Shown here: piece by piece, positions 3,636 to 37,135 of the stretch
Layout of the letters: each line of letters starts with the position of its first letter
Numbering within the stretch: the stretch's first letter is position 1
Source of the DNA: a virus
IMG/VR virus record: IMGVR_UViG_3300037189_007545
Location: 1-37,144 of that record
Strand: one strand, 5' to 3'
Length of the DNA: 37,144 bases
The notes under the pieces: generated by a model
What the model saw: only the letters and a program-made list of their open reading frames with translations
Told to the model about the DNA's origin: nothing
Databases searched by the model: none
Translations under genes and position numbers: made by a program

Positions 3636-3925
3636 TTAACAATCCTTTGCAAAACATCTTGAGAAACATTTTTAATTTCAGCCTTAATATTATCTTGAAT
3701 TTTTTTGCTTAAATCACGAGATAATTTGGGATTAACCTTAGAGCCTATAACGGGTCTAAAAACAACCTTAGAGCCTTTTTCAGTAGGCATTGTGTACCCA
3801 GACATATTAGGGGCTAAAATGGCTGAAATAGCCCTCTGTGAGCCTTGAATAGCCTGTTCTCTAGCAATTTTAGGCGCGTTGCGCTGCATGCCAATAAATT
3901 TACGTTTTAATTCCTCTGGTGTCAT
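3632..3925 (-). CDS. HK97 gp10-like head-tail joining protein (probable)
   Basis: This small basic protein has 97 residues when started at the ATG at 3925 (MTPEELKRKFIGMQRNAPKIA). That ATG overlaps the upstream stop as ATGA, so I prefer it to the GTG at 3934, which would add three residues. It is helical at both ends, with a central segment MSGYTMPTEKGSKVVFRPVIG. Small basic proteins at this position in siphovirus head-tail modules are usually of the HK97 gp10 or neck-protein type. There is no motif that proves it. Confidence 0.55.
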   Translation of the reverse strand: MTPEELKRKFIGMQRNAPKIAREQAIQGSQRAISAILAPNMSGYTMPTEKGSKVVFRPVIGSKVNPKLSRDLSKKIQDNIKAEIKNVSQDVLQRIVK

Positions 3926-4389
3926 ACATACCACTCATTAGGAATGTTAGGGTCTTTATTCCAACCTTCCCATCTTTGTGCGCCAGTAACCGACATAGTG
4001 CGAGCAGATTCAAATTGACCGGCAGCTTGCACATCCATTACACGAAACACTCGATCAATCATTAAAGCATCGTGATGATCAGTAACCGTGACTAAATCAT
4101 TAACCTGAGGCATTGTAGGGTTGCCGTCAGCTTTAACCAAAGGAATAGACACTTGTGAGCTAGAAAAATATTGAGGTTCTTCACCAAAAGAATACTGAAC
4201 TGGACCACTAACAGTTGTAACTCTAGCTTTTCCTGTATAAACAGTTAAGTAAGTTGTAGCGCTAATTTGACCTGTATTTGAAACAGAACTTGGAGCATTT
4301 GGGCGCGTAATAGTAACTTCTGCATTCATATTCATTTCGGCATATTTTTGAGCATATTTACGCACTAAAGACGTATTAATTTTGTACAT
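3922..4389 (-). CDS. Head closure / head-tail connector-like protein
   Basis: The product has 155 residues, starting MYKINTSLVRKYAQKYAEMNM. The N-terminal helix is followed by beta-rich sequence: AEVTITRPNA, TVYTGKARVTTVSGP, SQVSIPLVKADG, QVNDLVTVTD and VFRVMDVQAAGQFESARTMSVTG. The pattern of a short helix then a barrel with a V-x-D-L-V-x-V-T segment resembles the actinophage DUF6093-type or SPP1 gp16-like head closure proteins. It is in the expected position after the adaptor protein. Assignment is by fold-like pattern and synteny. Confidence 0.6.
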   Translation of the reverse strand: MYKINTSLVRKYAQKYAEMNMNAEVTITRPNAPSSVSNTGQISATTYLTVYTGKARVTTVSGPVQYSFGEEPQYFSSSQVSIPLVKADGNPTMPQVNDLVTVTDHHDALMIDRVFRVMDVQAAGQFESARTMSVTGAQRWEGWNKDPNIPNEWYV

Positions 4390-4391
4390 TT

Positions 4392-4892
4392 TTAGCCCCA
4401 GACGACAGGTTCATTCTGAACGTCAGAATTCCACCAATCAACTGCACGACCTGGATGATAATCGCCATAATTTTGTCTACCTGCAAGGTAGTTATCGTTA
4501 AAGCCAACACCAAATACAAGTGAAGGAATAGATGGATCCCATCTCATGTCCATAATGCTAATAGCAGTTATTGGATCAAAGTTGCCGTAAAGCGCCTTGT
4601 ACTGATCGCGAAGTGAAGCAGCCAAATCGTTGTAGCGCTGTTGTAGATCACCAATTTGTACAGAAACACCATCAGCAGACACGCTTACTTCACGAGCAAA
4701 CTTAGCTGCAATGTTTTCCGCAGCAACTGCAGCGATGTATAAAGGAGCACCGTAAGTATCAGTCCATTGAGTTAAAAGAAAGTCAATTTCTTCGTTAGTC
4801 AACAATTGAAAATTAGTGTCGGTATCCCCAACATAAAAGCGTACTTGATCGCGATTAGATGATGCAGGATTGCCAGAATAAGACCAACTCAT
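4392..4892 (-). CDS. Head-tail adaptor protein (gp6/gp15-like)
   Basis: This 166-residue protein has AGGA upstream of the ATG. The N-terminal part reads RDQVRFYVGDTDTNFQLLTN, then EEIDFLLTQ, then the helix IAAVAAENIAAKFAREVSVSA, then DLQQRYNDLAASLRDQY. This is the familiar layout of phage head-tail adaptors: a D-x-VRF-x-VGDTD opening, a 'LTNEEI' helix cap and long helices that line the connector ring on the portal. The C-terminal 40 residues (AGRQNYGDYHPGRAVDWWNS) are typical tails. It sits between head and connector genes. Confidence 0.75.
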   Translation of the reverse strand: MSWSYSGNPASSNRDQVRFYVGDTDTNFQLLTNEEIDFLLTQWTDTYGAPLYIAAVAAENIAAKFAREVSVSADGVSVQIGDLQQRYNDLAASLRDQYKALYGNFDPITAISIMDMRWDPSIPSLVFGVGFNDNYLAGRQNYGDYHPGRAVDWWNSDVQNEPVVWG

Positions 4893-4934
4893 AAAGTTAA
4901 TCCTACTTTCAAATACAGTAAATTACTTTACTGA

Positions 4935-5291
4935 TTAATCGTCATTATCTGTACGACGAGCAACAAGATTTTTCATTTTGGCTTTTGTTCGATCAGAAGC
5001 GGCTTTACGTCGCTTAGCGCCATCGCGCATTTTTTCTTTATTGCCAGTGAAAAGTCCAGCGTACATATCTTTGCGCGCCTTGTTGTATTCCATAAAGTCG
5101 CTTTTGTTTACATGATCAGAATCATCTTCAACAATAATTGCGTCAGCAATAGCTTCAAAATTACGCATAGCCTTGCTAACAATAAAAGACTTTTCTACAG
5201 ACATACGGGCATTCTTACAGGTCTTGCAGTTGCAATCGCAACCCTTTGCTGGCTTGCCTGGCTTGCATCCACATCCACATGAAGCGCACAT
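4935..5291 (-). CDS. Small protein with a metallothionein-like cysteine-rich N-terminus
   Basis: The 118-residue product has eight cysteines in its first 25 residues (positions 2, 5, 7, 9, 18, 20, 22 and 25), arranged as CxxCxCxC and CxCxCxxC and separated by a Lys/Gly/Pro segment. The rest is charged and probably helical (SFIVSKAMRNFEAIADAI; KARKDMYAGLFTGNKEKMRD; a basic end). AAGGA lies upstream of the ATG. The cysteine block suggests binding of zinc or other soft metals; this is inference. It lies between a Lys/Ala-rich small gene and the head-tail adaptor. I do not recognise a family. A shorter start at residue 30 would remove the cysteines but has no better ribosome binding site. Confidence 0.7.
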   Translation of the reverse strand: MCASCGCGCKPGKPAKGCDCNCKTCKNARMSVEKSFIVSKAMRNFEAIADAIIVEDDSDHVNKSDFMEYNKARKDMYAGLFTGNKEKMRDGAKRRKAASDRTKAKMKNLVARRTDNDD

Positions 5292-25156: not shown

Positions 25157-25245
25157 GCAATACTCCTAAAGTTTAAGAGGCTACTGGTCTACAGCCATAG
25201 TGTTATTTCTTAAGGTTACAGTTTGGCAAAGACACTTGCATCTGT

Positions 25246-26748: not shown

Positions 26749-26765
26749 AAAAAACAGTATAGTTG

Positions 26766-26838
26766 CTCCCACTACTGGATTTGAACCAATAACCCCAGAG
26801 TTAACAGCTCTGTGCTCTGCCGATTGAGCTAAGCGGGA
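26766..26838 (-). tRNA. tRNA-Asn (anticodon GTT)
   Basis: A complete 73-nt cloverleaf on the minus strand. The acceptor stem is TCCCGCT/AGTGGGA (one G-U pair); the D arm is GCTC-AATCGGCA-GAGC; the anticodon arm is CAGAG-CTGTTAA-CTCTG with anticodon GTT; the variable loop is GGGTT; the T arm is ATTGG-TTCAAAT-CCAGT. The discriminator base is G, as normal for tRNA-Asn. CCA is not encoded. It lies immediately before and, on the longest reading, overlaps the terminase gene. Phage tRNAs often supplement host decoding. Confidence 0.95.
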
Positions 26839-26916: not shown

Positions 26917-26944
26917 GGTTTCAGGCACTGCCTTACTACCAAGG

Positions 26945-27024
26945 TGGAGCAGCAGAGAGTTGAACTCTGGTCCTAGACACTACCTTCGTGAGGTTTTAAT
27001 GTCTAGTCGAAACCGTCCTGCCCC
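26945..27024 (-). ncRNA. Mini tmRNA-like RNA (tRNA-like domain only)
   Basis: The 80-nt minus-strand sequence folds like the tRNA-like domain of tmRNA. The acceptor stem is GGGGCAG/CTGCTCC with a G3-U70 wobble pair, the main alanine identity element, and discriminator A. There is a stemless D region GACGGTTTCGA, as in actinobacterial tmRNA; a helix 2 CTAGACA/TGTCTAG; then GAC and a T arm CAGAG-TTCAACT-CTCTG. Encoded 3' bases are ACC then T. In normal tmRNA several hundred bases, including the tag reading frame and pseudoknots, sit inside helix 2. Here only 20 bases do, with a small ACCT/AGGT hairpin. It does not fold as an ordinary tRNA: no D stem and no 7-base anticodon loop. Resemblance to mycobacterial ssrA ends is from memory. 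Confidence 0.75.
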
Positions 27025-27069: not shown

Positions 27070-27249
27070 TTAATCGTCACTATCTCTTAAAGGAAGAGTT
27101 AATAGCCACACAACTAATCCACCAACAATGATGTACCCAGTAATCAGCTTGGCTGATCCTGTCAATGTTGCATACGCTATTAGTAAGCCAACAAAGGTAT
27201 AGGTTTCTCCTGTGATTTCACGTAGGTATTTCTTTATCCACTTAATCAT
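27070..27249 (-). CDS. Small two-helix membrane protein (59 aa)
   Basis: This small protein starts MIKWIKKYLREITGETYTFV, with a strong GGAGG five bases before an ATG that overlaps the upstream stop as ATGA. Two hydrophobic segments, about 18-31 (TFVGLLIAYATLTG) and 36-52 (ITGYIIVGGLVVWLLTL), are flanked by a basic N-terminus and an acidic end LRDSDD. Coupling to the secreted protein before it suggests the two work together at the membrane. It could be a holin-like or accessory membrane protein; no family is recognised. Confidence 0.8.
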   Translation of the reverse strand: MIKWIKKYLREITGETYTFVGLLIAYATLTGSAKLITGYIIVGGLVVWLLTLPLRDSDD

Positions 27250-28625
27250 TTGATCCTCCTAACTTGTGCTACTTGTGTCACAATCACTGCTGCAACTACG
27301 GTATTTTGTGAAGTTTCACGTTCTTCTTCAGTCATGTCAGCTCCTACGTTTGCTAGCGCCTTAAGTGCTTTGCCAGGATCGCTAAATACTGTGGATAGAA
27401 GTTCTGCCGGTGTATCAAAGATCTCAATAGCATCAGCAACCTCAGCAGTAAGCACAACGCCGTTTTCCAAGATAATTAGAGTTTCGGGTGGTAAGTCATC
27501 ATAATCAAGGCCAGATGCTTCAAAAGCCTCAAAGCTAACTGGTTCCCCAGCAAACTCTTCAAGTAACGCATCCGCCACAAGTTCGCGCTCATCGTCAGTT
27601 AGTACGCCATCTGCCATTGCTTCATCTACAATTTCTTGTGTAGCCTCTTCAAGAGATGGCTCAGGCTCTATTACAGGTTCAGGAGATGGTGATTCACTTT
27701 GAATAGGTTCAGGTATTGGCGTTGGTTCTTCGTCCAAAGTTTGTTCAACGCTCGCAGTCGGTTCAGACTCTGGAGTCTGTGTTACTACTGGCGTAGGTAC
27801 AACAACTTCAGGAGTTGGTTCAAGTGATGGTGTTGAAGTATTTGAAGGCTCTGGGGTTGGCTCTACTGTCGGTGTGTCTGATGGCGATGGCTCTGGTGAT
27901 GGTGGGTCTGTCGGTGTGGGTGTTGTTGTTTCTGTGGGCAGCGACGTCGGCTCCGTAAGAGTTGGCTCTGGCGTAGGTGTTTCACTTGGTGTTGGAGTTT
28001 CTGATGGGATTACTGGTGGTTCTGTGAAAGATGATGGAGTTGGAGCTGGTGTTACTTCAACAGGAACTCCACCATCACCAACATCAAAAGCGCCATCAAT
28101 AGTTACTACTGGTTCTCCAGCTACATAACGAATACCTCGTCTTAAATCAGCCGGAAGCCAACCAAAGGTAGTTACTTCTCCATGCCATGTACCATTTGGG
28201 TATTTGTTAATAACCAATCGGATTTGAGTTAAATCTCCTGTTGATTGTGGATATGGACGCAAACTCCATTCAACACATAGTGTATTTTCAGTTGATCCAA
28301 AAGATACATAAGCACCTTGTCCAAATGTCACCCAGTCGTAACCTGCAACAGAAACGCTAGGTGTCTGTGGATAACTACTAAAGTTAGCATCTGGCTGTCC
28401 AAAGGTTAATGTACCATTGCTAGTAATAAATACGTTGTCGTACTCTGTAGGCCCTAGCTTTAGGCTAAATGGCAAGTTAGCAGGATAAGCAAAATCATCA
28501 TGTCCGGTATAGGTGTAAGTATTACAAACCACATTGGCGTAAGCATTAGTTGAGAAAAAGGGCAAAGATGCCACTAACAACAACATAAAAAATGCTGCAA
28601 TTGTACGCATTGATCTAAACGGCAT
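27246..28625 (-). CDS. Secreted protein with Pro/Thr/Ser/Glu-rich linker and helical C-terminal domain
   Basis: The product has 459 residues from the ATG at 28625 (MPFRSMRTIAAFFMLLLVAS), which has AGGA six bases upstream; a TTG at 28643 would add six residues. The signal peptide ends near NAYA. The mature N-domain, about 150 residues, is beta-rich (FSLKLGPTEYDNVFITSNGT LTFG; WVTFGQGAYVSFGSTENTLC). A linker of more than 120 residues of Pro/Thr/Ser/Glu follows, with PTP and PEP repeats. The C-terminal domain contains ADGVLTDDERELVADALLEE, like EF-hand or TerB-style D-G-x-L-T-x-x-E motifs, and ends with a weakly hydrophobic helix and RRIK. It is the first gene of the long minus-strand late region. 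It could be a cell-surface decoy or adhesion factor; function unknown. Confidence 0.75.
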   Translation of the reverse strand: MPFRSMRTIAAFFMLLLVASLPFFSTNAYANVVCNTYTYTGHDDFAYPANLPFSLKLGPTEYDNVFITSNGTLTFGQPDANFSSYPQTPSVSVAGYDWVTFGQGAYVSFGSTENTLCVEWSLRPYPQSTGDLTQIRLVINKYPNGTWHGEVTTFGWLPADLRRGIRYVAGEPVVTIDGAFDVGDGGVPVEVTPAPTPSSFTEPPVIPSETPTPSETPTPEPTLTEPTSLPTETTTPTPTDPPSPEPSPSDTPTVEPTPEPSNTSTPSLEPTPEVVVPTPVVTQTPESEPTASVEQTLDEEPTPIPEPIQSESPSPEPVIEPEPSLEEATQEIVDEAMADGVLTDDERELVADALLEEFAGEPVSFEAFEASGLDYDDLPPETLIILENGVVLTAEVADAIEIFDTPAELLSTVFSDPGKALKALANVGADMTEEERETSQNTVVAAVIVTQVAQVRRIK

Positions 28626-28694
28626 ATAAGTCCTAACAAACAAGCCGTTTTACTTAATCCTAATGGATAACTAATTAAGTGTTTTGTTTGTTGC

Positions 28695-28742
28695 AATAAA
28701 AAGCCCGCCACGGGTAGAAAGGAATAACACCCCGTGACGGGC
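28695..28742 (-). terminator. Strong intrinsic terminator just downstream of the minus-strand promoter
   Basis: On the minus strand GCCCGTCACGGG and CCCGTGGCGGGC pair over 12 bp (one T-G) around a 16-base loop GTGTTATTCCTTTCTA, followed by TTTTTATT. It lies about 20 bases after the expected transcription start at 28761 and 70 bases before the first late gene. Read-through would therefore need antitermination. The loop is complementary to the ribosome binding site of the divergent gene at 29111. Confidence 0.85.
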
Positions 28743-28761
28743 AGCTCTATGTTGGCAGTAT
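28695..28761 (-). ncRNA. Predicted 65-70 nt terminated small RNA with anti-Shine-Dalgarno loop
   Basis: A transcript from the promoter at 28768-28796 that stops at the terminator would be about 65 nt, mostly the terminator hairpin. Its 16-nt loop GTGTTATTCCTTTCTA can pair with 29096-29110 of the plus-strand mRNA (AGGAAGGAATAACAC) over 15 contiguous bases: 14 Watson-Crick and one G-U. That target is the Shine-Dalgarno region ending at the ATG at 29111. Phage precedents for short antisense RNAs blocking a ribosome binding site exist (P22 sar RNA). Expression has not been shown. Confidence 0.55.
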
Positions 28762-28767
28762 ATACCA

Positions 28768-28796
28768 TTTATACGCAAATAGAGATATGTTGTTAA
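28768..28796 (-). promoter_or_regulatory. Sigma-70-like promoter reading into the late region
   Basis: On the minus strand TTAACA (28791-28796) and TATAAA (28768-28773) are separated by exactly 17 bases. Each box has one mismatch to TTGACA and TATAAT. Transcription should start near 28761 and meet the terminator at once. It is the best promoter-like sequence I found in the window and faces the long minus-strand gene set. Confidence 0.65.
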
Positions 28797-28815
28797 CGCC
28801 TTACACCGAAGATGC

Positions 28816-28840
28816 AGTCTCATGATTAACTCGTGAGACT
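28816..28840. promoter_or_regulatory. 25-bp dyad, candidate operator between divergent units
   Basis: AGTCTCA (28816-28822) and TGAGACT (28834-28840) are perfect inverted arms of seven bases around 11 bases, with further partial symmetry inside (20 of 25 positions symmetric). It is 20 bases upstream of the minus-strand -35 box and its last base overlaps a possible plus-strand -35 (TTGACG). That placement suits a repressor/activator site controlling both directions. The regulator is unknown; the product of the gene at 29111 is one candidate. Confidence 0.45.
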
Positions 28841-28868
28841 TGACGGAATCTGATTCAGCTTTTAACTT
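28840..28868 (+). promoter_or_regulatory. Possible weak plus-strand promoter for the gene set at 29111
   Basis: TTGACG (28840-28845), a 17-base spacer and TAACTT (28863-28868). The -35 box is good but the -10 box is poor. It would give a leader of about 235 bases before 29111. That leader contains GATAAC-8-GTTATC (29005-29024) and an imperfect GTTGGTTAACAAC palindrome near 28985. No gene is convincing between 28626 and 29110. Confidence 0.3.
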
Positions 28869-29004
28869 TTTTCTTATGAGAAGTTTAAGGATTCCCATTC
28901 CGAATTTTCATTTTCAGTTTCTGTTATCTTCATCTTGTTCCGGCGTTTTTAAAGGGTAGCATATACATGCAAATCCATGTGGTGTTGGTTAACAACGTGT
29001 CGCA

Positions 29005-29024
29005 GATAACCATTTATTGTTATC
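29005..29024. repeat. Small inverted repeat in the leader of the plus-strand genes
   Basis: GATAAC and GTTATC, six bases each, are separated by CATTTATT. The repeat lies about 90 bases before the start at 29111 and near an imperfect GTTGGTTAACAAC palindrome. It could be a second operator or RNA hairpin; nothing proves a role. Confidence 0.35.
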
Positions 29025-29110
29025 ATTCTGTTACATAAATATTTACCTGTATGGCTTCTTATATTTCTGCTTTATGCATTAGTCTGTTGCTTAACAGGAA
29101 GGAATAACAC

Positions 29111-29335
29111 ATGGCTCTACGGTTACCTGAAGTAGTTAAGGAAACACGGAAGTGTTCCTTGGCTAAACTTACTGATCGGCTAGATGAAGTTGATCAAGAA
29201 ACACTAAGTAAATGGCTTGAAAGCAATATCAGCTCTTACCAAATATTTTTGGCCTTAAAAGCCGATGGACACCGTATCGGTAAACAAACCGTATATGAAC
29301 ATAGGATTGGATACTGTATCTGTGGCTCTGAGTGA
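29111..29335 (+). CDS. Small HTH-like DNA-binding protein
   Basis: The product has 74 residues and follows AGGAAGGAATAACAC directly, a strong Shine-Dalgarno. The text CSLAKLTDRLDEVDQETLSK then WLESNISSYQIFLALKADGH and RIGKQTVYEHRIGYCICG matches a small actinophage helix-turn-helix type: a helix, N-P/I-S-x-x-x-I-x-x-x-L-K-x-x-G-H, then I-x-x-x-T-V-x-x-H-R-x-G-x-C. These are usually called DNA-binding proteins of unknown role. It is the first gene of a three-gene plus-strand unit with a metallophosphoesterase. It may regulate the divergent region or act with the phosphoesterase on DNA; this is inference. Its ribosome binding site is the proposed target of the small RNA at 28695-28761. Confidence 0.7.
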   Translation: MALRLPEVVKETRKCSLAKLTDRLDEVDQETLSKWLESNISSYQIFLALKADGHRIGKQTVYEHRIGYCICGSE

Positions 29336-29336
29336 T

Positions 29337-30506
29337 ATGGCGAGCCCTGGTATGGGCAGCCCAAACCCGTCTGGTAAACATCCTAAGATCCCTAAAGGTT
29401 GGGAACCTAGAGTTGAATCAGATCCCGTTGCTGGTGGTTATTTAGTTACTAGGCCACGGGAAGTTCAACAAGATGATCCAAGCACTCTTGAGTTGTTTGA
29501 TCAGTTCAACATGAATCCTGATAAATGGCGTATTACCAATGTAAGACGCTCATCTTGGCAAAAGTTTGATGGCGAATGGCTAGAGTCTTTTAGAGCCACA
29601 TTTGTCCCTGCGAGCCTTACAGGGGCTATACAAGCCGATGCTGACGAATTAATCAAAATGGTATCTAAGCACAAGCCAGCCAAAAAAGAGGCTTCTGGAG
29701 GCTCTGAGAGCGCTTTATTCCCTATTGGTGATACTCAGATAGGTAAAGTTGACGGCGGTGGAACTGAGCAGATTCTTACTAATAGCCTGACCCGAATTGA
29801 CCAATCCGTTGAACGTCTTAAAGCATGGCGCAAAATGGGTTATGAAATTGGCGAAGTAGTGATTCCATGGCTTGGCGACTGTATTGAAGGTAACCAGTCA
29901 CAAGGCGGTAACGCAGCAGCAGCCGGGCGAATTGACTTGTCTATTACAGAGCAAGTACGAGTATTGCGACGCTTGATGATGTATCAAGTAAAAGCATTTG
30001 CGCCATTGGCACAAAAACTCATTGTCCCAGTAGTACCGGGAAACCACGATGAAGCAGAGCGCCATGGCAACATTACTCGCTCATACACAGACTCATGGGC
30101 TATTGAAGCAGGTTCGGCAGTAGCGGATGCTTGTGCTGAAAATCCAGATGCTTATGGTCATGTTTCATTTGTTTTTCCACATTATGACGAACTAACAATC
30201 ACAATGGAAACAAGTGGCACGATCATTGCTATGGCTCATGGCCATCAATTTGGCAGAGATCCATTTAAGTGGTGGCAAGAACAGTCACATGGACGCCAAC
30301 CAGTAGGGGAAGCCCATATTTTGATGGCGGGTCACTTGCACCATACTCACATTAAAGACACGGGTAAAGATCGCATCTTTATGCAGGTACCGGCATTAGA
30401 TGGCGGATCAAATCACTATAGGCATCGCAGAGGTGAAGATTCTAAGCCTGGTTTATTGTCCTTTATAACAAGTAATGGAGATTGGAAAGAGCTGAGCATT
30501 CTATGA
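29337..30506 (+). CDS. Metallophosphoesterase (Mre11/SbcD-like fold)
   Basis: The protein has 389 residues from the ATG at 29337, two bases after the previous stop; a longer frame from 29265 only re-reads the HTH gene. Motifs in order: FPIGDTQIGK (about 129-137; the usual D-x-H is D-T-Q), WLGDCIEGN (178-186), VPGNHDE (233-239), MAHGHQF near 296-302 and MAGHLHHTHIKD near 325-336. Together these form the two-metal site of calcineurin-like phosphoesterases. The phage versions are thought to be nucleases or phosphatases acting on DNA or nucleotides. The N-terminal 110 residues (PKGWEPRVESDPVAGGYLVT; SWQKFDGEWLESFRATFVPA) form an extra domain. It partners with the HTH protein upstream. Confidence 0.85.
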   Translation: MASPGMGSPNPSGKHPKIPKGWEPRVESDPVAGGYLVTRPREVQQDDPSTLELFDQFNMNPDKWRITNVRRSSWQKFDGEWLESFRATFVPASLTGAIQADADELIKMVSKHKPAKKEASGGSESALFPIGDTQIGKVDGGGTEQILTNSLTRIDQSVERLKAWRKMGYEIGEVVIPWLGDCIEGNQSQGGNAAAAGRIDLSITEQVRVLRRLMMYQVKAFAPLAQKLIVPVVPGNHDEAERHGNITRSYTDSWAIEAGSAVADACAENPDAYGHVSFVFPHYDELTITMETSGTIIAMAHGHQFGRDPFKWWQEQSHGRQPVGEAHILMAGHLHHTHIKDTGKDRIFMQVPALDGGSNHYRHRRGEDSKPGLLSFITSNGDWKELSIL

Positions 30507-30697
30507 AGCGGCACATAGTTGTATCTGTTAAAGGCGTAGAAATTGTCAACATTCTTCTTGAAGAAATAGATGATGATCCTGAAGAAGATCAATCAGATCA
30601 ACCTGGTCCAACAGCAGCAAGTATAGATGCTGGCGCAGGTAGTCAGATAGGGTTTTCTACGCCGTGGTCAGATTTGTATTTTGATGATGAAGATTAG
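30503..30697 (+). CDS. Small acidic protein
   Basis: The product is a protein of 64 residues from the ATG at 30503, which overlaps the phosphoesterase stop as ATGA. It opens MKRHIVVSVKGVEIVNILLE, then an acidic stretch EIDDDPEEDQSDQPG and ends SDLYFDDED. The first part may form a small beta-alpha element; the rest is probably disordered. Its 3' end overlaps the convergent gene at 30657-30896 by 41 bases. Unknown function. Confidence 0.6.
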   Translation: MKRHIVVSVKGVEIVNILLEEIDDDPEEDQSDQPGPTAASIDAGAGSQIGFSTPWSDLYFDDED

Positions 30698-30896
30698 CGT
30701 CTCTGTGCTTTGCCCAAATTTTTTTTCTACTGTCATCATCTAGAACAACTGTTAAATCAGACCAACCGCAGTTACAAGATGGGTACTTATTAACCTCAAA
30801 AGTATCGTCACTGTTGCGAACAATTGCAATGTTTGATTGATACCTACAAGGACGGTTGCCGTCTTTCTTAGAGGCTTTTTGGCTCTTTCTACCCAC
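30657..30896 (-). CDS. Small basic Cys-containing protein
   Basis: The gene encodes 79 residues starting with GTG at 30896 (M-G-R-K-S-Q-K-A-S-K-K-D), with GGAG nine bases upstream and an 8-base overlap with the glycosyltransferase gene. Cysteines occur at C17 and in YPSCNCGWSDL (about 41-43), with a His-rich C-terminus KHRDANLHHQNTN; metal binding is possible but not shown. It overlaps the end of the plus-strand gene at 30503-30697. Unknown function. Confidence 0.6.
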   Translation of the reverse strand: MGRKSQKASKKDGNRPCRYQSNIAIVRNSDDTFEVNKYPSCNCGWSDLTVVLDDDSRKKIWAKHRDANLHHQNTNLTTA

Positions 30897-31956
30897 CCTG
30901 TATGTCTCCTAAATAATGATTTAAATTATTAATTAATCTTTCGTCATTTGGTAATAACTCCAAAGCAATGCGCCCATGCATTAACGCAGACTGCTGATTG
31001 CCAGTATGCCATTCTGATAATGCAAGTAAATCATGGGGTAAGTATCCCCAAGCGTCAGCTTCGCATAGGTACTCTAATGGCTTTGTTGTAATTTCAAGGG
31101 CTTGCATTGCGTACTTTTTGCAGTTATCCCAATCGCTTTGAGTGTAGTAAGTAAAAGATAAATCAACTAAAGCTTCTCTTCGGCCGGGGGCTTCATTGAT
31201 TGCCTTTTCAAACCATTGGATTTTTTCTGAAATATCATCGCAGCATTTAGCAATCATTCTCATTGATGCTGCTCTTTCCGGAACCCATAATGCTTTTGGC
31301 AGTTCAAGATGGCGCATTAACTCCTTTTTTGCCTCATTTTTTAGGCCATACATGAATAACTCACGACCATAGTAAAAAGAGTTTCTGTCATCATGCGGAT
31401 CTTCTTCGACAGATAACTCAAGTAAATTTAAGTATTGACCTCTTGATTTAGTGTCATCTGCATGGTGATGTATTTCTAGTCCAATGTGCATCTGGGTTTC
31501 AGCTATGCGATCAATTTTAATTACTTCATGAACAGGATGTTTCCATACGTATCCTTTACGGGTATGAATTTTATCACCTTGGTACTGAAGCCCCGGAGTA
31601 CCATCTTCATTCCAATTCCAAGTGTAGGTATAACGAGGTCTTGTAATGTTTTTATTGTGCGCTTCTTGTAAGTGTTTGCGCCACCCAGGTTGTAATTCTT
31701 CATCCATGTCTAAAGCAATGCAATAATCTACATCTAATGGAATTAATGCTAAAGAAGCATTTCTTGCTGTATCAAAGCGCCAAGGGCTAATATTAATTGA
31801 AACTACATTAATTCCAAAAGATTTTGCTAGTTTAACGGTTTTATCAGTTGAACCCGTGTCTGCAATTAATAAATAATCTGCTTCTTTGCACGATTCAAAC
31901 CATTTTTTTACAAACTTTTCTTCGTTAAGAGCTATTGCGTAAACAGCAACTTTCAC
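30889..31956 (-). CDS. Family-2 glycosyltransferase with TPR-like C-terminus
   Basis: I place the start at the GTG at 31956, two bases after the previous stop, giving 355 residues beginning VKVAVYAIALNEEKFVKKWF. An ATG at 32016 would add a Ser/Asn-rich leader that only re-reads the neighbour. GT2 hallmarks are YAIALNEEKFV, DYLLIADTGSTDKT, WRFDTARNASLALIPLDVDY and the metal-binding CIALDMDEEL. PVHEVIKIDRIAE follows. The second half is TPR-like (NSFYYGRELFMYGLKNEAKK; KIQWFEKAINEAPGRREALV; CKKYAMQALEIT). It lies in the tail-fibre cluster, so it may glycosylate virion proteins or alter the host envelope; the acceptor is unknown. Confidence 0.85.
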   Translation of the reverse strand: MKVAVYAIALNEEKFVKKWFESCKEADYLLIADTGSTDKTVKLAKSFGINVVSINISPWRFDTARNASLALIPLDVDYCIALDMDEELQPGWRKHLQEAHNKNITRPRYTYTWNWNEDGTPGLQYQGDKIHTRKGYVWKHPVHEVIKIDRIAETQMHIGLEIHHHADDTKSRGQYLNLLELSVEEDPHDDRNSFYYGRELFMYGLKNEAKKELMRHLELPKALWVPERAASMRMIAKCCDDISEKIQWFEKAINEAPGRREALVDLSFTYYTQSDWDNCKKYAMQALEITTKPLEYLCEADAWGYLPHDLLALSEWHTGNQQSALMHGRIALELLPNDERLINNLNHYLGDIQGG

Positions 31957-31958
31957 CG

Positions 31959-32192
31959 CTAAATTTCGCTTACTACTTGACGAATTATTGGAGGAGTTAT
32001 TACAGGATGAGTCCATGACCCATCAGAATTACGTATAGATCCAATAGTTACGTATGTGTATGAATCATCTTCTTCGCAAGGATGAGGTTCTACTGAAAGA
32101 CCTTCTCCAGGATTGTATTCAGAAATACCGTCCCACAAAATAATATTTAAAACTTTATTTTTTGAATCTAGAACTAAATATCTATCAGACAT
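31959..32192 (-). CDS. Small protein of the tail-fibre cluster
   Basis: This 77-residue protein begins MSDRYLVLDSKNKVLNIILW, then DGISEYNPGEGLSVEPHPCE. The pattern 'Y-x-V-L-(D/N)-x-x-N-x-V-x-N-I-I-x-W-D-G-x-x-x-Y-x-P' is common in short phage proteins encoded beside tail fibre genes. Their role is not established; attachment or chaperone functions have been suggested. AAGGA lies 14 bases before the ATG. It precedes the glycosyltransferase. Confidence 0.65.
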   Translation of the reverse strand: MSDRYLVLDSKNKVLNIILWDGISEYNPGEGLSVEPHPCEEDDSYTYVTIGSIRNSDGSWTHPVITPPIIRQVVSEI

Positions 32193-32237
32193 AATAAAAT
32201 ATTTTCCTTTCGATATACATCTCTATGTTTATAATTC

Positions 32238-32912
32238 TTAACCATACCAGACTTTTACTACAACAACACCTAATCCACCGCCACCTGCACCATAAATTTG
32301 TCCACCAGCACCTGATGCAGTTCGACCACCAGGTATTGGCAGGTTATTTCCAAGACTTCCACCTATTGTTGAATATAGAGGGCTTTCTCCGCCACCGCCT
32401 CCATATGCAAATACTTCAATGTCTCCCTGCTGATAATGATATGTCGAACCATCTTGCCCTGGTGCTCCACCGTAACTAGTAGCACCAGAATTGCCGTCAA
32501 AAAACCCACCATAACCATCTGTATAACCATCTTGTCCACCGCCGCCACCATTGTATTTTCCATATCCACCATCTAAATTAGTGCTGGAACCCGCTTTTAA
32601 TGTGCCGAATATAGATGAAGAATCAGAGGCTACAGTTACACTTACAGTACTTCCCAACAAAGATGCATCAAAAAATGCAGAAGTTAATGCTCCACCACCC
32701 ATACTTATTCCAGTGCCAATTGCTGTTACATGAACAATTTTTGCTTGACTAGGTTTAGTCCAAGTACCAGAACCAGTAAATACTTCTACTGAAACTCCAT
32801 TAAAATTTTGCCAATCAATTAGATTCCAAGAGTTAGAACTTGAAATGTATTCCCAAGTTACATTACCAATTGTGTATTGCTCTCCGTTATCAGGACTTAC
32901 TGGAAAAGGCAT
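32238..32912 (-). CDS. Glycine-rich tail fibre/adhesin protein, paralogue C (224 aa)
   Basis: The N-terminus MPFPVSPDNGEQYTIGNVTW and EYISSSNSWNLID is a short W-containing module. A signature GSGTWTKPSQAKIVHVTAIG then leads to Gly/Ser/Tyr-rich sequence (KYNGGGGGQDGYTDGYGGFF; GAGGQIYGAGGGGLG), ending VVVVKVWYG. The same plan occurs in the two following paralogues. Glycine-rich domains of this kind form collagen-like or polyglycine-II bundles in phage receptor-binding tips, such as T4-like adhesins. It probably helps bind the host surface. Confidence 0.75.
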   Translation of the reverse strand: MPFPVSPDNGEQYTIGNVTWEYISSSNSWNLIDWQNFNGVSVEVFTGSGTWTKPSQAKIVHVTAIGTGISMGGGALTSAFFDASLLGSTVSVTVASDSSSIFGTLKAGSSTNLDGGYGKYNGGGGGQDGYTDGYGGFFDGNSGATSYGGAPGQDGSTYHYQQGDIEVFAYGGGGGESPLYSTIGGSLGNNLPIPGGRTASGAGGQIYGAGGGGLGVVVVKVWYG

Positions 32913-32917
32913 CTAAA

Positions 32918-33814
32918 TCACCCATACCAAACTGTTATAGCAACTAATCCGCCGCCACCAGCACCACCAGCACCACCTGCGCCAGAAGCACCACCAGTCG
33001 AACCTTCTCCACCACCGCCACCGCCACCGCCTGGAAGCCCACCAGCGCCACCAACAGAAGGAGTAGTTGTCGAAGAAGCAGCACCAGCGCCACCCCCGGC
33101 TGGAGCATTGTAAGAAGTATTACTGCTGCCTGCTTGACTTGCAGTAGTTGCTGCAGTTAGAGAAGTGCAAGCAGATATACCAGCACCAAGCATGTTATTA
33201 ATAAACGAATATCCACCATTTCCACCTGCACCCCCTCCTGCATAAATGCTAGTAGCAGATGGAGTAGACGAATCTACATTTGAATTACCAATCCACATAC
33301 CACTTCCACCTACACCCCCTCCGCTACTAACACCATTTGCTCCAGTTCGCCCAGCACCGCCACCTTTTGCTACAAGAAAAGTACCAAAAGAGGAGTCTCC
33401 GCCAGCGCCACCAGCATTGCCAGATAAAGCAGTAGTACCTGTTGCAGTTACAGTACCTCCAGTACCACCACTACCTACGGTATAAGAAATTACAGTGCCA
33501 GCTCCTCCAAGTTCAAAAGCAGAAAACATTCTTTCGGAGAATCCCCCTCCTCCGCCGCCGCCGCCGCCACCGTTATTAGCAACATTTCGAGCGCCACCAC
33601 CGCCACCGCCACCTGCACCAATTACTACAACATTTAACACTTTTGCTCCATTAGGGATCGTAAAAGAACCAGAAGATGTGTAGTAGTTAAATGTAGGAGC
33701 AGTGTTTTCTGTGTGAGTCGTTACTGTCCAAGTATTATAAACAGAAGAATACGTATACAAAACATTGTCTTGTAAAGCAGTTTGTCCATTTGTTGGATTA
33801 GAAGGAAGAGCCAT
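32918..33814 (-). CDS. Glycine-rich tail fibre/adhesin protein, paralogue B (298 aa)
   Basis: Start at the ATG at 33814 (MALPSNPTNGQTALQDNVLY), in line with its paralogues; a GTG at 33823 overlaps the previous stop. The N-terminal module P-x-N-P-T-N-G-Q ... Y-x-Y-S-S-V-Y-N-T-W-T-V is followed by FTIPNGAKVLNVVVIGAGGG and very Gly-rich text, including runs of eight or more Gly. The end is GGLVAITVWYG. Low-complexity Gly runs are a likely site of recombination and length variation among related phages. Probable receptor-binding component. Confidence 0.75.
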   Translation of the reverse strand: MALPSNPTNGQTALQDNVLYTYSSVYNTWTVTTHTENTAPTFNYYTSSGSFTIPNGAKVLNVVVIGAGGGGGGGARNVANNGGGGGGGGGGFSERMFSAFELGGAGTVISYTVGSGGTGGTVTATGTTALSGNAGGAGGDSSFGTFLVAKGGGAGRTGANGVSSGGGVGGSGMWIGNSNVDSSTPSATSIYAGGGAGGNGGYSFINNMLGAGISACTSLTAATTASQAGSSNTSYNAPAGGGAGAASSTTTPSVGGAGGLPGGGGGGGGEGSTGGASGAGGAGGAGGGGLVAITVWYG

Positions 33815-33819
33815 AAATA

Positions 33820-34764
33820 TCACTCATACCAAATTGTGATAAAAACGCAACCTTGAGCGCCAGCACCGCCAGCACCTGAGCCAGTACCACTAACTCTAAG
33901 TCCACCACCGCCACCGCCGCCTCCGCCATAAAGACCACCACTACCTCCAGGGTATCCTGTCGTAGAGGCAGAACCAGAGCCTCCACCACCTCCACCACCA
34001 GGAAGAGATTTACCAGTAGTTCCACCGTTAGAGCCACCACTACCTAGTGTAGCATTTCCCGTTGCTGCTACACCGTAAGCGATACAACCACCACCAGCAC
34101 CACCAGTACCCTGTCCAGTTCCAGTGCTTGAGCCACCTCCACCCCCACCAGAGCCAGCAGCACCACCTGCAGATGCAGAGTTTACACCACCGCCACTACT
34201 CCCCTCACCACTGTCGCTAGAAGGGTACATACCTGGAGTTGCATATGTAAAATTAGAACCTGAATAATATCCAAAGTCACACCCTGCACCTCCATAGGCT
34301 AATAATGTTCCTAAGTTGCTAGATGTTCCAAGTTTTACAGAACTGGTTCCACCAGCACTTCCAGCATTTCCATAACTGACGACACTAGTTCTTGATGCTC
34401 CTCCAGAACCGCCAGCACCAACAGTGATTACAGCAGTTGCGTTATACCCAGCAATAAGATTGTAAGTTGCTTCGCTCATCTGTCCACCAGCACCGCCACC
34501 GCCGCCGATAGATTGCGTACCAGTTTGATAGGCACCACCAGCACCGCCACCGCCACCGCCAATGCAAACAATATGCATTACGCGAGCGCCAGTTGGAATA
34601 GTCCAAGAAGAAACAGATGATGTAAAAAGATGAGTTGTTGGAGCCTTTTTTGGCACAGATGTGTCAATAGTCCAGTTTTGTAAAGCTGAGTTATAAACAT
34701 ATTGGGTTGATCCAACAATGTATGTTTGACCATTAGTAGGCGAAACAGGAAAATTAGTTGGCAT
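33820..34764 (-). CDS. Glycine-rich tail fibre/adhesin protein, paralogue A (314 aa)
   Basis: It opens MPTNFPVSPTNGQTYIVGST then QYVYNSALQNWTID, followed by SSWTIPTGARVMHIVCIGGG and a long Gly/Ser/Ala-rich body (GSGGASRTSVVSYGNAGSAG; SLPGGGGGGGSGSASTTGYP). The end is GAQGCVFITIWYE. It shares the N-terminal 'P-x-N-G-Q ... Y-x-Y-N-S-x-x-x-x-W' module, the '(I/K)-P-x-G-A-(R/K)-V-x-(H/N)-(I/V)-V' signature and the hydrophobic -WY(E/G) end with the next two genes. Tandem paralogues suggest repeated duplication and diversification of an adhesin. Confidence 0.75.
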   Translation of the reverse strand: MPTNFPVSPTNGQTYIVGSTQYVYNSALQNWTIDTSVPKKAPTTHLFTSSVSSWTIPTGARVMHIVCIGGGGGGAGGAYQTGTQSIGGGGGAGGQMSEATYNLIAGYNATAVITVGAGGSGGASRTSVVSYGNAGSAGGTSSVKLGTSSNLGTLLAYGGAGCDFGYYSGSNFTYATPGMYPSSDSGEGSSGGGVNSASAGGAAGSGGGGGGSSTGTGQGTGGAGGGCIAYGVAATGNATLGSGGSNGGTTGKSLPGGGGGGGSGSASTTGYPGGSGGLYGGGGGGGGGLRVSGTGSGAGGAGAQGCVFITIWYE

Positions 34765-34775
34765 AATTTATCTTA

Positions 34776-34937
34776 TCATCCTGTTTGATCATCAGAAATT
34801 TTCCAATCGTCTACCATGCCACCGCAAGGTCCACACATAAAAGTAGTTTCTTCTGGTCCTTGACCACGAACGGTTACATTATTCCAATCACAACCATCCG
34901 TGTGACAAGTGATTTCATACCAAACTAATTTATCCAT
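34776..34937 (-). CDS. Tiny zinc-ribbon-like protein (53 aa)
   Basis: This minus-strand frame starts [20 protein letters not shown] at the ATG at 34937, sharing one base with the collagen-like gene stop (TAATG). Cysteines at 11, 16, 35 and 38 (C-x4-C ... M-C-G-P-C-G-G-M) make a compact zinc-ribbon-like site. The end is VDDWKISDDQTG. It fills the gap between two fibre genes. Small zinc proteins of this kind are frequent in phages; role unknown. Confidence 0.7.
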   Translation of the reverse strand: MDKLVWYEITCHTDGCDWNNVTVRGQGPEETTFMCGPCGGMVDDWKISDDQTG

Positions 34938-37135
34938 TATTGAGTCGCTATCCATGAGAAGGGTACCGCTGCAGCACCATTATTTCCATTATTTCCATAT
35001 ACCGTAAAGGTTGTTGCGCCAATGTTTCCTACAAAAATGTGGGTGTTTGTTGTTGATGAATAAGTATTTGAACGAATACTTACTACAACGCTTGACGGTG
35101 TTGTACCAAGACCGTGAGTAACAGTTTGGTTAGAACCCGATGTTGTAGTTCCTTGCCCACCAATAACAGTCCTAATTGTTAAACCAGAAGAATTATATGT
35201 TGCATACGTAGCACTATTGGCACTACTGGCACTTCCAGCACTAGTGGCAAAACCATTTAAATTTCCATTAAATGTTCCTGCCGTTACACTTCCTGTATCT
35301 GATAATTGAAAAATAACAGCATTGTAAGCACTATTAACAACTTCAAGTGTACCAGCGTTGGTTGTTCTAATGTATTTACTTGGATTAGTAGCACCAGCCG
35401 TTGTATTAGTTAATGTTAGAAATCCAGCATATCCAGTCCCTCCATAATCATTAGATGAAGTAATGTTTACTTGACTAGAGCCAGTGCCGTTTACGTTTAA
35501 AGTACTAGCCGTTACGGTTCCAGTAAATGTTGGATTAGCAGTGGGTGCTATGCCAGTTACCACACCTGTCAAGCCATTTACTGATGTAACTCCACCAGCG
35601 GCTCCAGTAGGACCCGTGGGACCTGTGACTGTTGACGCAGCACCCGTTGGACCTGTAGGACCGGTAGGGCCTGTGACTGTTGAAGCTGCTCCAGTTGGTC
35701 CAGTAGGTCCAGTAACTGTTGATGCTGCTCCAGTTGGACCAGTTGGGCCTGTTACTGTTGAGGCCGCTCCCGTAGGGCCTGTAGGACCCGTAACCGTACT
35801 GGCAGCTCCTGTAGGTCCAGTAGGACCCGTAGGACCGGTAGATCCTACGTTGCCAGCACTGCTTATTGTCCATGCTGCAAAAGTTCCTGATCCACCAATG
35901 GCATCTACAGTCATCACCATAGAAGTTCCTGTTACGGTAACAATGCCTTCCATGTAGTTTGCAGGCGTTGTTGTATTTGCTGCCCTTACTCTCATTCCAG
36001 TTACAAAAGCGCTATTTGCTGTAATCGTAAATGTTCTAGAAACTGAATTAGCAATAGTTAAAGAAGTTGATGAAGTTACACCTGAATATCCAGAACCGGT
36101 TGCTCCTGTAGGGCCTGTGACTGTTGAAGCTGCTCCTGTCGGCCCCGTTGGACCGGTAACAGTTGAGGCTGCGCCAGTTGGGCCTGTAGCTCCTGTAGGT
36201 CCAGCTACAGTTGATACTGCACCCGTAGGTCCCGTTGCTCCAATTGGGGATGATCCAATTTCAACCCAATATGTTCCGTCATACACATAAGTCTTGCCGT
36301 TGTCAGAGTTATACCACATACTTCCCGTTGTAGGAGATGCTGGTGGGGTAGCACTAGTAACAGATGTAAGCCCTGTAGGCCCAGTCGGTCCCGTTACTGT
36401 TGAAGATGCACCCGTCGGACCCGTCGGACCTGTTACGGTTGATGCAGCGCCTGTTGCTCCAGTTGCTCCAGTTGGACCTGTTGCTCCAGTAGGTCCAGTA
36501 ACTGTTGATGCTAATCCAGTTGCTCCAGTAGGTCCTGTAGGACCTATGTTTCCTGCTGCGCTTATTGTCCAGGCAGCAAAAGTACCAGACCCACCTGTTG
36601 CATCTGAAGTCATTGTCATTGTCGTGCCAGAAACTGTAACAATGCCTTCCATATAATTTGCTGGAGTAGTTGTGTTTGCTGCCCTAACTCGTTGACCTGT
36701 TGTAAATGCACTACCAGCAGTTATAGTAAAAACTTTTGATCCGGTTCCAATTAATAAAGAAGTTGTAGATGTTACCCCAAAATATCCAGCACCAGTTGGA
36801 CCTGTTACGGTTGATGCAGCGCCTGTTGGACCCGTAGGTCCTGTAACCGTACTGGCTGCGCCAGTTGGGCCCGTAGGTCCCGTAACCGTTGAGGCTGCGC
36901 CAGTTGGGCCTGTTGGACCTGTTGGACCTATTACTGTACTTGCTGCACCCGTAGGTCCAGTAACACCTTGAATTCCTTGTGGACCCGTAGGTCCCGTTGG
37001 TCCAGTGGCACCAGTCGGTCCAAGTTGAGTGTACATAACTTGAGTGGCAGTAACAATCATCGAAGCAACTGCTGGAGATGCAGGTGAAGTAGTTGCTGTT
37101 TGTGCTTCTAAAGTATTGGCCGCATCATTGCTCAT
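34937..37135 (-). CDS. Collagen-like tail fibre protein
   Basis: This fibre protein has 732 residues. Most of it is Gly-x-Thr/Pro collagen-like triplets, built from the unit [13 protein letters not shown] repeated many times (four main blocks). Two copies of a globular insert of about 80 residues occur near 115-195 and 345-425, sharing [14 protein letters not shown] and [12 protein letters not shown] small module [20 protein letters not shown] then GTYWVEIG sits near 270-305. The C-terminal 220 residues are a beta-rich tip ([20 protein letters not shown] ... [17 protein letters not shown] ... FSWIATQ). Collagen-like phage proteins form trimeric fibres. The ATG lies nine bases from the right edge, so its ribosome binding site is outside the window. 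Confidence 0.85.
35590..37040. repeat. Collagen-type tandem triplet repeats in the fibre gene
   Basis: Degenerate DNA repeats encode [12 protein letters not shown] units, interrupted by two copies of a globular insert at about 35850-36100 and 36540-36790. Codon choice varies among units (for example GGTCCT, GGACCC, GGCCCC), so the repeats are old or under selection against identity. Long open frames on the plus strand here (35484-35957, 36294-36656) are mirror images of the repeats, not genes. Confidence 0.8.

Follow-up and report, generated by a model that had tools for sequence, protein, structure and literature searches.

The loop of an intrinsic terminator in a 37,144-base virus record (the window, that is, the whole stretch of DNA analysed) is antisense to the ribosome binding site (RBS) of a divergent operon, and in the reading we prefer, with a confidence a little above even, this terminator loop carries antisense repression of the translation of that HTH/MRE11-nuclease operon. 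On the plus strand, the loop TAGAAAGGAATAACAC (28715-28730) and the leader CAGGAAGGAATAACAC (29095-29110), which comprises the Shine-Dalgarno region and the spacer directly before the ATG at 29111, agree in 14 of 16 bases, the final 12 being identical, just as a first, sequence-only reading of this DNA had claimed. The two copies lie 380 bp apart and are the sole direct repeat reported in the region. Exact copies of AAGGAATAACAC occur across the 37 kb at the loop and the leader only, and a single copy with one mismatch was found at 25200-25211 (minus strand). On the RNA level the antisense loop GUGUUAUUCCUUUCUA (28715-28730, minus strand) forms 15 contiguous pairs, one of them G-U, with 29096-29110 at a duplex energy of -22.2 kcal/mol; these pairs over the Shine-Dalgarno sequence had likewise been predicted, and the site proved to be the best in the window. 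The next-best among 40 gene starts reached -15.1 kcal/mol, and among 4,941 sequence windows on both strands none outside the target site fell below this value. Opening costs of 4.8 kcal/mol for the leader and 0.3 kcal/mol for the loop leave a net energy of about -17 kcal/mol, with both sides accessible.

The terminator (28703-28742, minus strand) has a 12-bp stem with 10 G-C pairs and a dG of -25.2. The 16-nt loop is open in the MFE structure, and the hairpin is followed by UUUUUAUU, with the U-tail at 28698-28702. For the 91 nt around the hairpin a z of -3.9 against shuffles was obtained, and no other strong intrinsic terminator was found in the window. The hairpin was also considered on the plus strand, with a Shine-Dalgarno sequence in the loop, but this reading was dropped, as there was no fitting gene and no T-run on the plus side. 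Upstream of the hairpin a sigma-70-type promoter is predicted (28768-28796, minus strand), with the -35 element TTAACA at 28796-28791, a 17-nt spacer and the -10 element TATAAA at 28773-28768. It matches 10 of 12 consensus positions, is the best match in the divergent region and has a predicted start near 28761; the automated promoter scan had skipped TTAACA-17-TATAAA, as it demands a T at the last -10 position. Together the promoter and terminator signals predict an RNA of ~67 nt (28694-28761, minus strand), consisting of a short 5' leader, the hairpin and the U-tail, which would be a separate small RNA. In an Rfam scan of the window the predicted RNA had no match; only a tRNA and a tmRNA were detected at gathering score. 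An inverted repeat GTTAACAACRTRTC (28784-28797 and 28988-29001; 14 nt, 86%) was also observed; the -35 of the minus-strand promoter falls within its left arm, and its right arm precedes the HTH gene. By its sequence it is a candidate operator or shared promoter element.

The divergent region of ~480 bp separates a minus-strand block, with a 465-codon ORF first, from the plus-strand HTH operon. The first target gene (29111-29335, plus strand; phrog_1738, unknown function) encodes a small HTH-like protein of 74 aa with a C-terminal CxC and is paired with a nuclease gene in relatives. The second (29337-30506, plus strand; phrog_284) encodes a metallophosphoesterase or MRE11-like exonuclease of 389 aa, the homologues of which are annotated MRE11 or exonuclease in isolated actinophages. 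A small acidic ORF (30503-30697, plus strand) overlaps the stop of the nuclease gene and is the probable third target; by eye it resembles the third gene of the corresponding operon in the relative L154. The initial description of an HTH-phosphoesterase gene set was right for this order of an HTH gene, an MRE11-like nuclease/phosphoesterase gene and a small acidic ORF. The host probably belongs to the Actinobacteria, judged only by the actinobacterial hosts of the nuclease homologues. The 465-codon ORF (27246-28625, minus strand; probable start ATG 28625, listed TTG 28643) is the first gene 3' of the terminator, and its N-terminal part is 69-85% identical in relatives. In a lambda-PR'-like late leader, an antiterminator protein lets polymerase read through a leader terminator into the late operon. 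In the window the terminator precedes the first late gene, and by eye no good promoter follows it; no antiterminator gene was identified. The link to antitermination made in the sequence-only reading may lie in this position ahead of the first late gene.

Several further elements were observed in the minus-strand block. The near-copy AAGAAATAACAC at 25200-25211 is followed by T-ATGGCTGTA and a 5-codon ORF and lies between the terminase gene and the next gene. An 83-nt RNA gene (26942-27024, minus strand) scores 56-62 bits against the Rfam tmRNA model, a range that includes the copies in relatives (L020 5430-5512, L026 5354-5436 and L030 5763-5845, plus strand). Apparently only the tRNA-like end is left in this element, with no room for a tag ORF or pseudoknots; by eye it has an alanine-type G3-U70 pair. 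The element is conserved upstream of the terminase gene in several related phages. In the window a tRNA-Asn (GTT; 26765-26838, minus strand) lies beside it, and the listed GTG start (26772) of the terminase ORF falls inside the 3' end of this tRNA.

Among the alternatives, chance survives best: a pyrimidine-rich loop of an ordinary terminator may happen to resemble an anti-Shine-Dalgarno sequence and to fit one start, which we regard as unlikely, though of some weight. The loop holds UCCUUUCU, which fits Shine-Dalgarno sequences generally, but the match runs through AUAACAC past the Shine-Dalgarno core, and with the anti-Shine-Dalgarno core TTCCTT fixed only 28 of 20,000 random loops matched the HTH leader over 12 nt. 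Besides, the target gene is the neighbouring, divergent one. When the loop was shuffled at constant composition, a 12-nt exact match to any of the 77 Shine-Dalgarno-bearing starts of the window arose in 46 of 50,000 cases. A 12-base match had been described as beyond chance expectation, which agrees with these shuffles, but correction for the screening of 43 intergenic terminators brings the shuffle probability of the window to about 0.04, so that the window taken alone is borderline. The match is lifted above this level because the target is adjacent and parallel cases exist.

The screen covered 27 records, in which terminator-like hairpins with a loop of 8-20 nt numbered 43 in intergenic and 21 in genic positions; each loop was scored against the translation starts of its own record and compared with 60 shuffled loops. 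An earlier large screen had been discarded, since hairpins that overlapped their own start regions and loci rich in G+C had made its result unusable. Intergenic hairpins had a mean z of -0.80, genic ones of -0.06. Two outliers were seen, L158 (z -5.65) and the window (z -5.29), the next values lying at -2.1 and above. Eight records with the invariant loop CTTATGCTTTGT had z values from -1.5 to -2.0, and one of them, the fragment G010, had its best start at another gene. Most other intergenic terminators among the 43 had no target, a result in keeping with chance. The 10-nt loops TTTACCCCTT of G022 and TACTCCTATC of G021 pair over almost their full length with AAGGGGTAAG and ATAGGAGTA, respectively, and did not exceed their shuffles. 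Terminator-like hairpins with 10-nt loops almost wholly complementary to a Shine-Dalgarno region of their own record were noticed at L309 15719-15752 and L310 1774-1807 (both minus strand).

Against chance stand an independent 14-nt case in L158 and the invariant loop of its sister phages. Among the terminator-like hairpins of the fetched loci, L158 provided the only other match of at least 12 nt. Its terminator follows a lysis/nuclease operon and carries the loop CUUUUAUCCUUUGU, which is antisense over 14 of 14 nt to the RBS of an early gene at 5208 and pairs over 13 nt with the RBS at 4584 of the first gene past the terminator; 7 of 50,000 shuffles reached 14 nt. By sequence, the principle of a terminator loop antisense to an RBS recurs in L158 as an independent parallel. 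Sister phages have a terminator at the same place, with the 12-nt loop CTTATGCTTTGT invariant and stems that vary with pairing kept; five of these loops were below the T-run threshold and were found by reading the sequence. In all seven sister phages with the early region fetched, the best translation start for CTTATGCTTTGT was that of a single-strand-annealing gene (phrog_3290). The pairing covers ACAAAGC and the start codon with 11 pairs at a moderate -13.3, and the leader of the annealing gene varies upstream, with ACAAAGC kept. Over the seven sister genomes, which are not independent of each other, 8 of 500 shuffled loops reached the observed summed energy. The own loop beat foreign loops on the own leader in the window, in L158 and for the annealing gene of the L141 group. 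The loop of L156 differs and so does its annealing-gene leader, but the new pair is weak, and so is L156 as a case of co-variation. The loop/target pairs differ among L141-type, L158 and L156 phages, and related phages in general have a different terminator loop, aimed at other genes than that of the window. A further conserved terminator family was observed ~300 nt after the nuclease gene in L138, L143, L144, L152 and L153; its long loop is close to AAGCCGTAGGGGAAGACGGCAA and can form an inner hairpin.

L158 bears also on an origin of the match at the DNA level, in which the 12-mer would be an operator bound twice, e.g., by the HTH protein, or the remnant of a short duplication, its position in the loop being incidental. 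The direct repeat 380 bp apart, the adjacent repressor-like gene and the near-copy at 25200-25211, likewise just before an ATG, are what one would expect from it. However, the copies coincide precisely with the loop and with the RBS, and the inverted repeat GTTAACAACRTRTC makes the better operator candidate. In the window, terminator and target are on opposite strands, hence the copies are direct repeats; in L158 they share a strand, and its copies are inverted. The feature shared by the two is therefore RNA antisense and not DNA duplication, and we consider the DNA-level origin improbable. We also rejected a protein that binds an mRNA motif as what connects the two copies, because it is the complement of this motif that is present in the small RNA. 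Somewhat less probable again is an excludon-like arrangement, in which leftward fibre/glycosyltransferase transcripts cross the nuclease-HTH operon in antisense direction as far as the terminator, so that the leader would be silenced by this long overlapping RNA and the loop match would be redundant. Minus-strand genes are indeed present on the right-hand side of the target operon (30889-37135), with no strong minus-strand terminator found between them and 28703. However, the hairpin has a good promoter immediately upstream, and a loop match would not be selected for by a long antisense transcript.

The exact pair of the window was sought in relatives, in collections that may lack very close records, and was not seen elsewhere. 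L154, the nearest nuclease relative found (71%), has retained the HTH-nuclease operon, the leader of which is ACAGAAAGGTTACTG; its region, read directly, has no such hairpin, and hence gives no co-variation evidence for the window's exact pair. Relatives by terminase and portal (~80%) have other genes in the region and no matching hairpin. A search of viral contigs for the loop plus part of the stem gave two chance matches with no hairpin, and the same stem with any loop was not found. In a scan with the HTH protein no relative was confirmed, although HTH relatives did appear beside the nuclease gene, and blastn against isolated phages gave no match. A similar ~200-nt stretch with no obvious gene was noted in L026 (~3780-4070) and L020 (~4730-4970), flanked by a promoter-like site and by a terminator AACCCTTGC-loop-GCAGGGGTT-TTTTT immediately ahead of the first late gene; on its sequence it is possibly a leader or a non-coding RNA.

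Repression of the HTH/MRE11-nuclease operon by a terminator loop would resemble P22 sar and 6C/B11 in its working principle rather than by demonstrated kinship. The sar RNA of phage P22 is encoded opposite its target region, whereas the window RNA is encoded ~350 bp from its target, with no overlap between the loci 28694-28761 and 29095-29110, and only its loop is complementary. Sar has 68/69 nt and is antisense to the translation start of ant (PMC12197685). By analogy, both would be short phage RNAs of near-equal length that block translation initiation by pairing, and the window RNA has, by sequence prediction, the sar-type feature of a short terminator-ended RNA complementary to a translation start. 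Unlike sar, with which it has no sequence relation, it also forms the leader of another operon. For the 6C/B11 RNA of Actinobacteria, PMC10470900, where Mai et al. 2019 is cited, describes hairpin loops that pair with RBSs and repress translation, reportedly without RNA chaperones. Loop-on-RBS pairing as described there is like that proposed for the window, and Actinobacteria are the phylum whose phages encode the nearest homologues. B11 acts with short C-strings on many host mRNAs, whereas the window has one long specific loop for one phage operon. Two features of 6C/B11 are absent: there is no Rfam match, and one main hairpin with the loop GUGUUAUUCCUUUCUA in place of two with C-string loops. 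The c4 RNA of P1/P7, a short phage RNA of 77 nt (PMC12197685), pairs in trans with a phage mRNA and acts on it in this way, as is proposed for the window; it targets the ant mRNA in coliphages, and no structural relation to the window RNA was seen. In the case of IsrK of Gifsy-1, one promoter gives rise to a short terminated RNA or a read-through mRNA (PMC4825925). The short form works in trans on an mRNA of the phage, as would the RNA of the window, but IsrK activates translation of its own longer form, whereas repression of a separate divergent operon is proposed here.

Under loop-mediated repression, polymerase starting near 28761 would stop at ~28695-28702 in many rounds and free the ~67-nt hairpin RNA. 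Its open 16-nt loop, computed to pair over 15 nt with the Shine-Dalgarno sequence of the HTH operon, would do so in trans and keep the 30S subunit off the leader. Firing of the late-side promoter may thus lower the translation of a DNA-processing operon in trans. The sequence-only reading had a small RNA, released by early termination of late transcription, silence this operon; the analysis bears it out in the loop antisense to the RBS and adds a promoter that predicts the ~67-nt RNA and the parallel in L158, these being the parts that it covers. In related phages the device would work with different loops: the lysis/nuclease operon ends in a terminator whose loop is antisense to translation starts of the downstream early operon. 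In general terms, the device would serve as a translational brake, coupling the transcription of one operon to the silencing of another.

More tentatively, and at somewhat less than an even chance, we suggest that phages probably infecting Actinobacteria use the loops of operon terminators as exchangeable anti-RBS elements against recombination and early genes, loop and target being re-matched in evolution. The stem would end transcription, and the loop would serve as anti-RBS for an MRE11-like nuclease, a single-strand-annealing protein or small early genes. Such a use of phage terminator loops was not found in the literature searched, the coverage of which is incomplete. The usual explanation of early-to-late switches in phages invokes transcription factors, sigma factors or antiterminators. 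If the suggestion is true, the terminator itself carries the off-signal of the other operon, with no extra gene and no Hfq needed; in Mycobacterium tuberculosis no Hfq homologue has been identified (PMC11188477). A simple rule would then apply to any phage, namely to compare the terminator loops with the translation starts of the same genome, and the co-evolution of loop and target would become directly testable.
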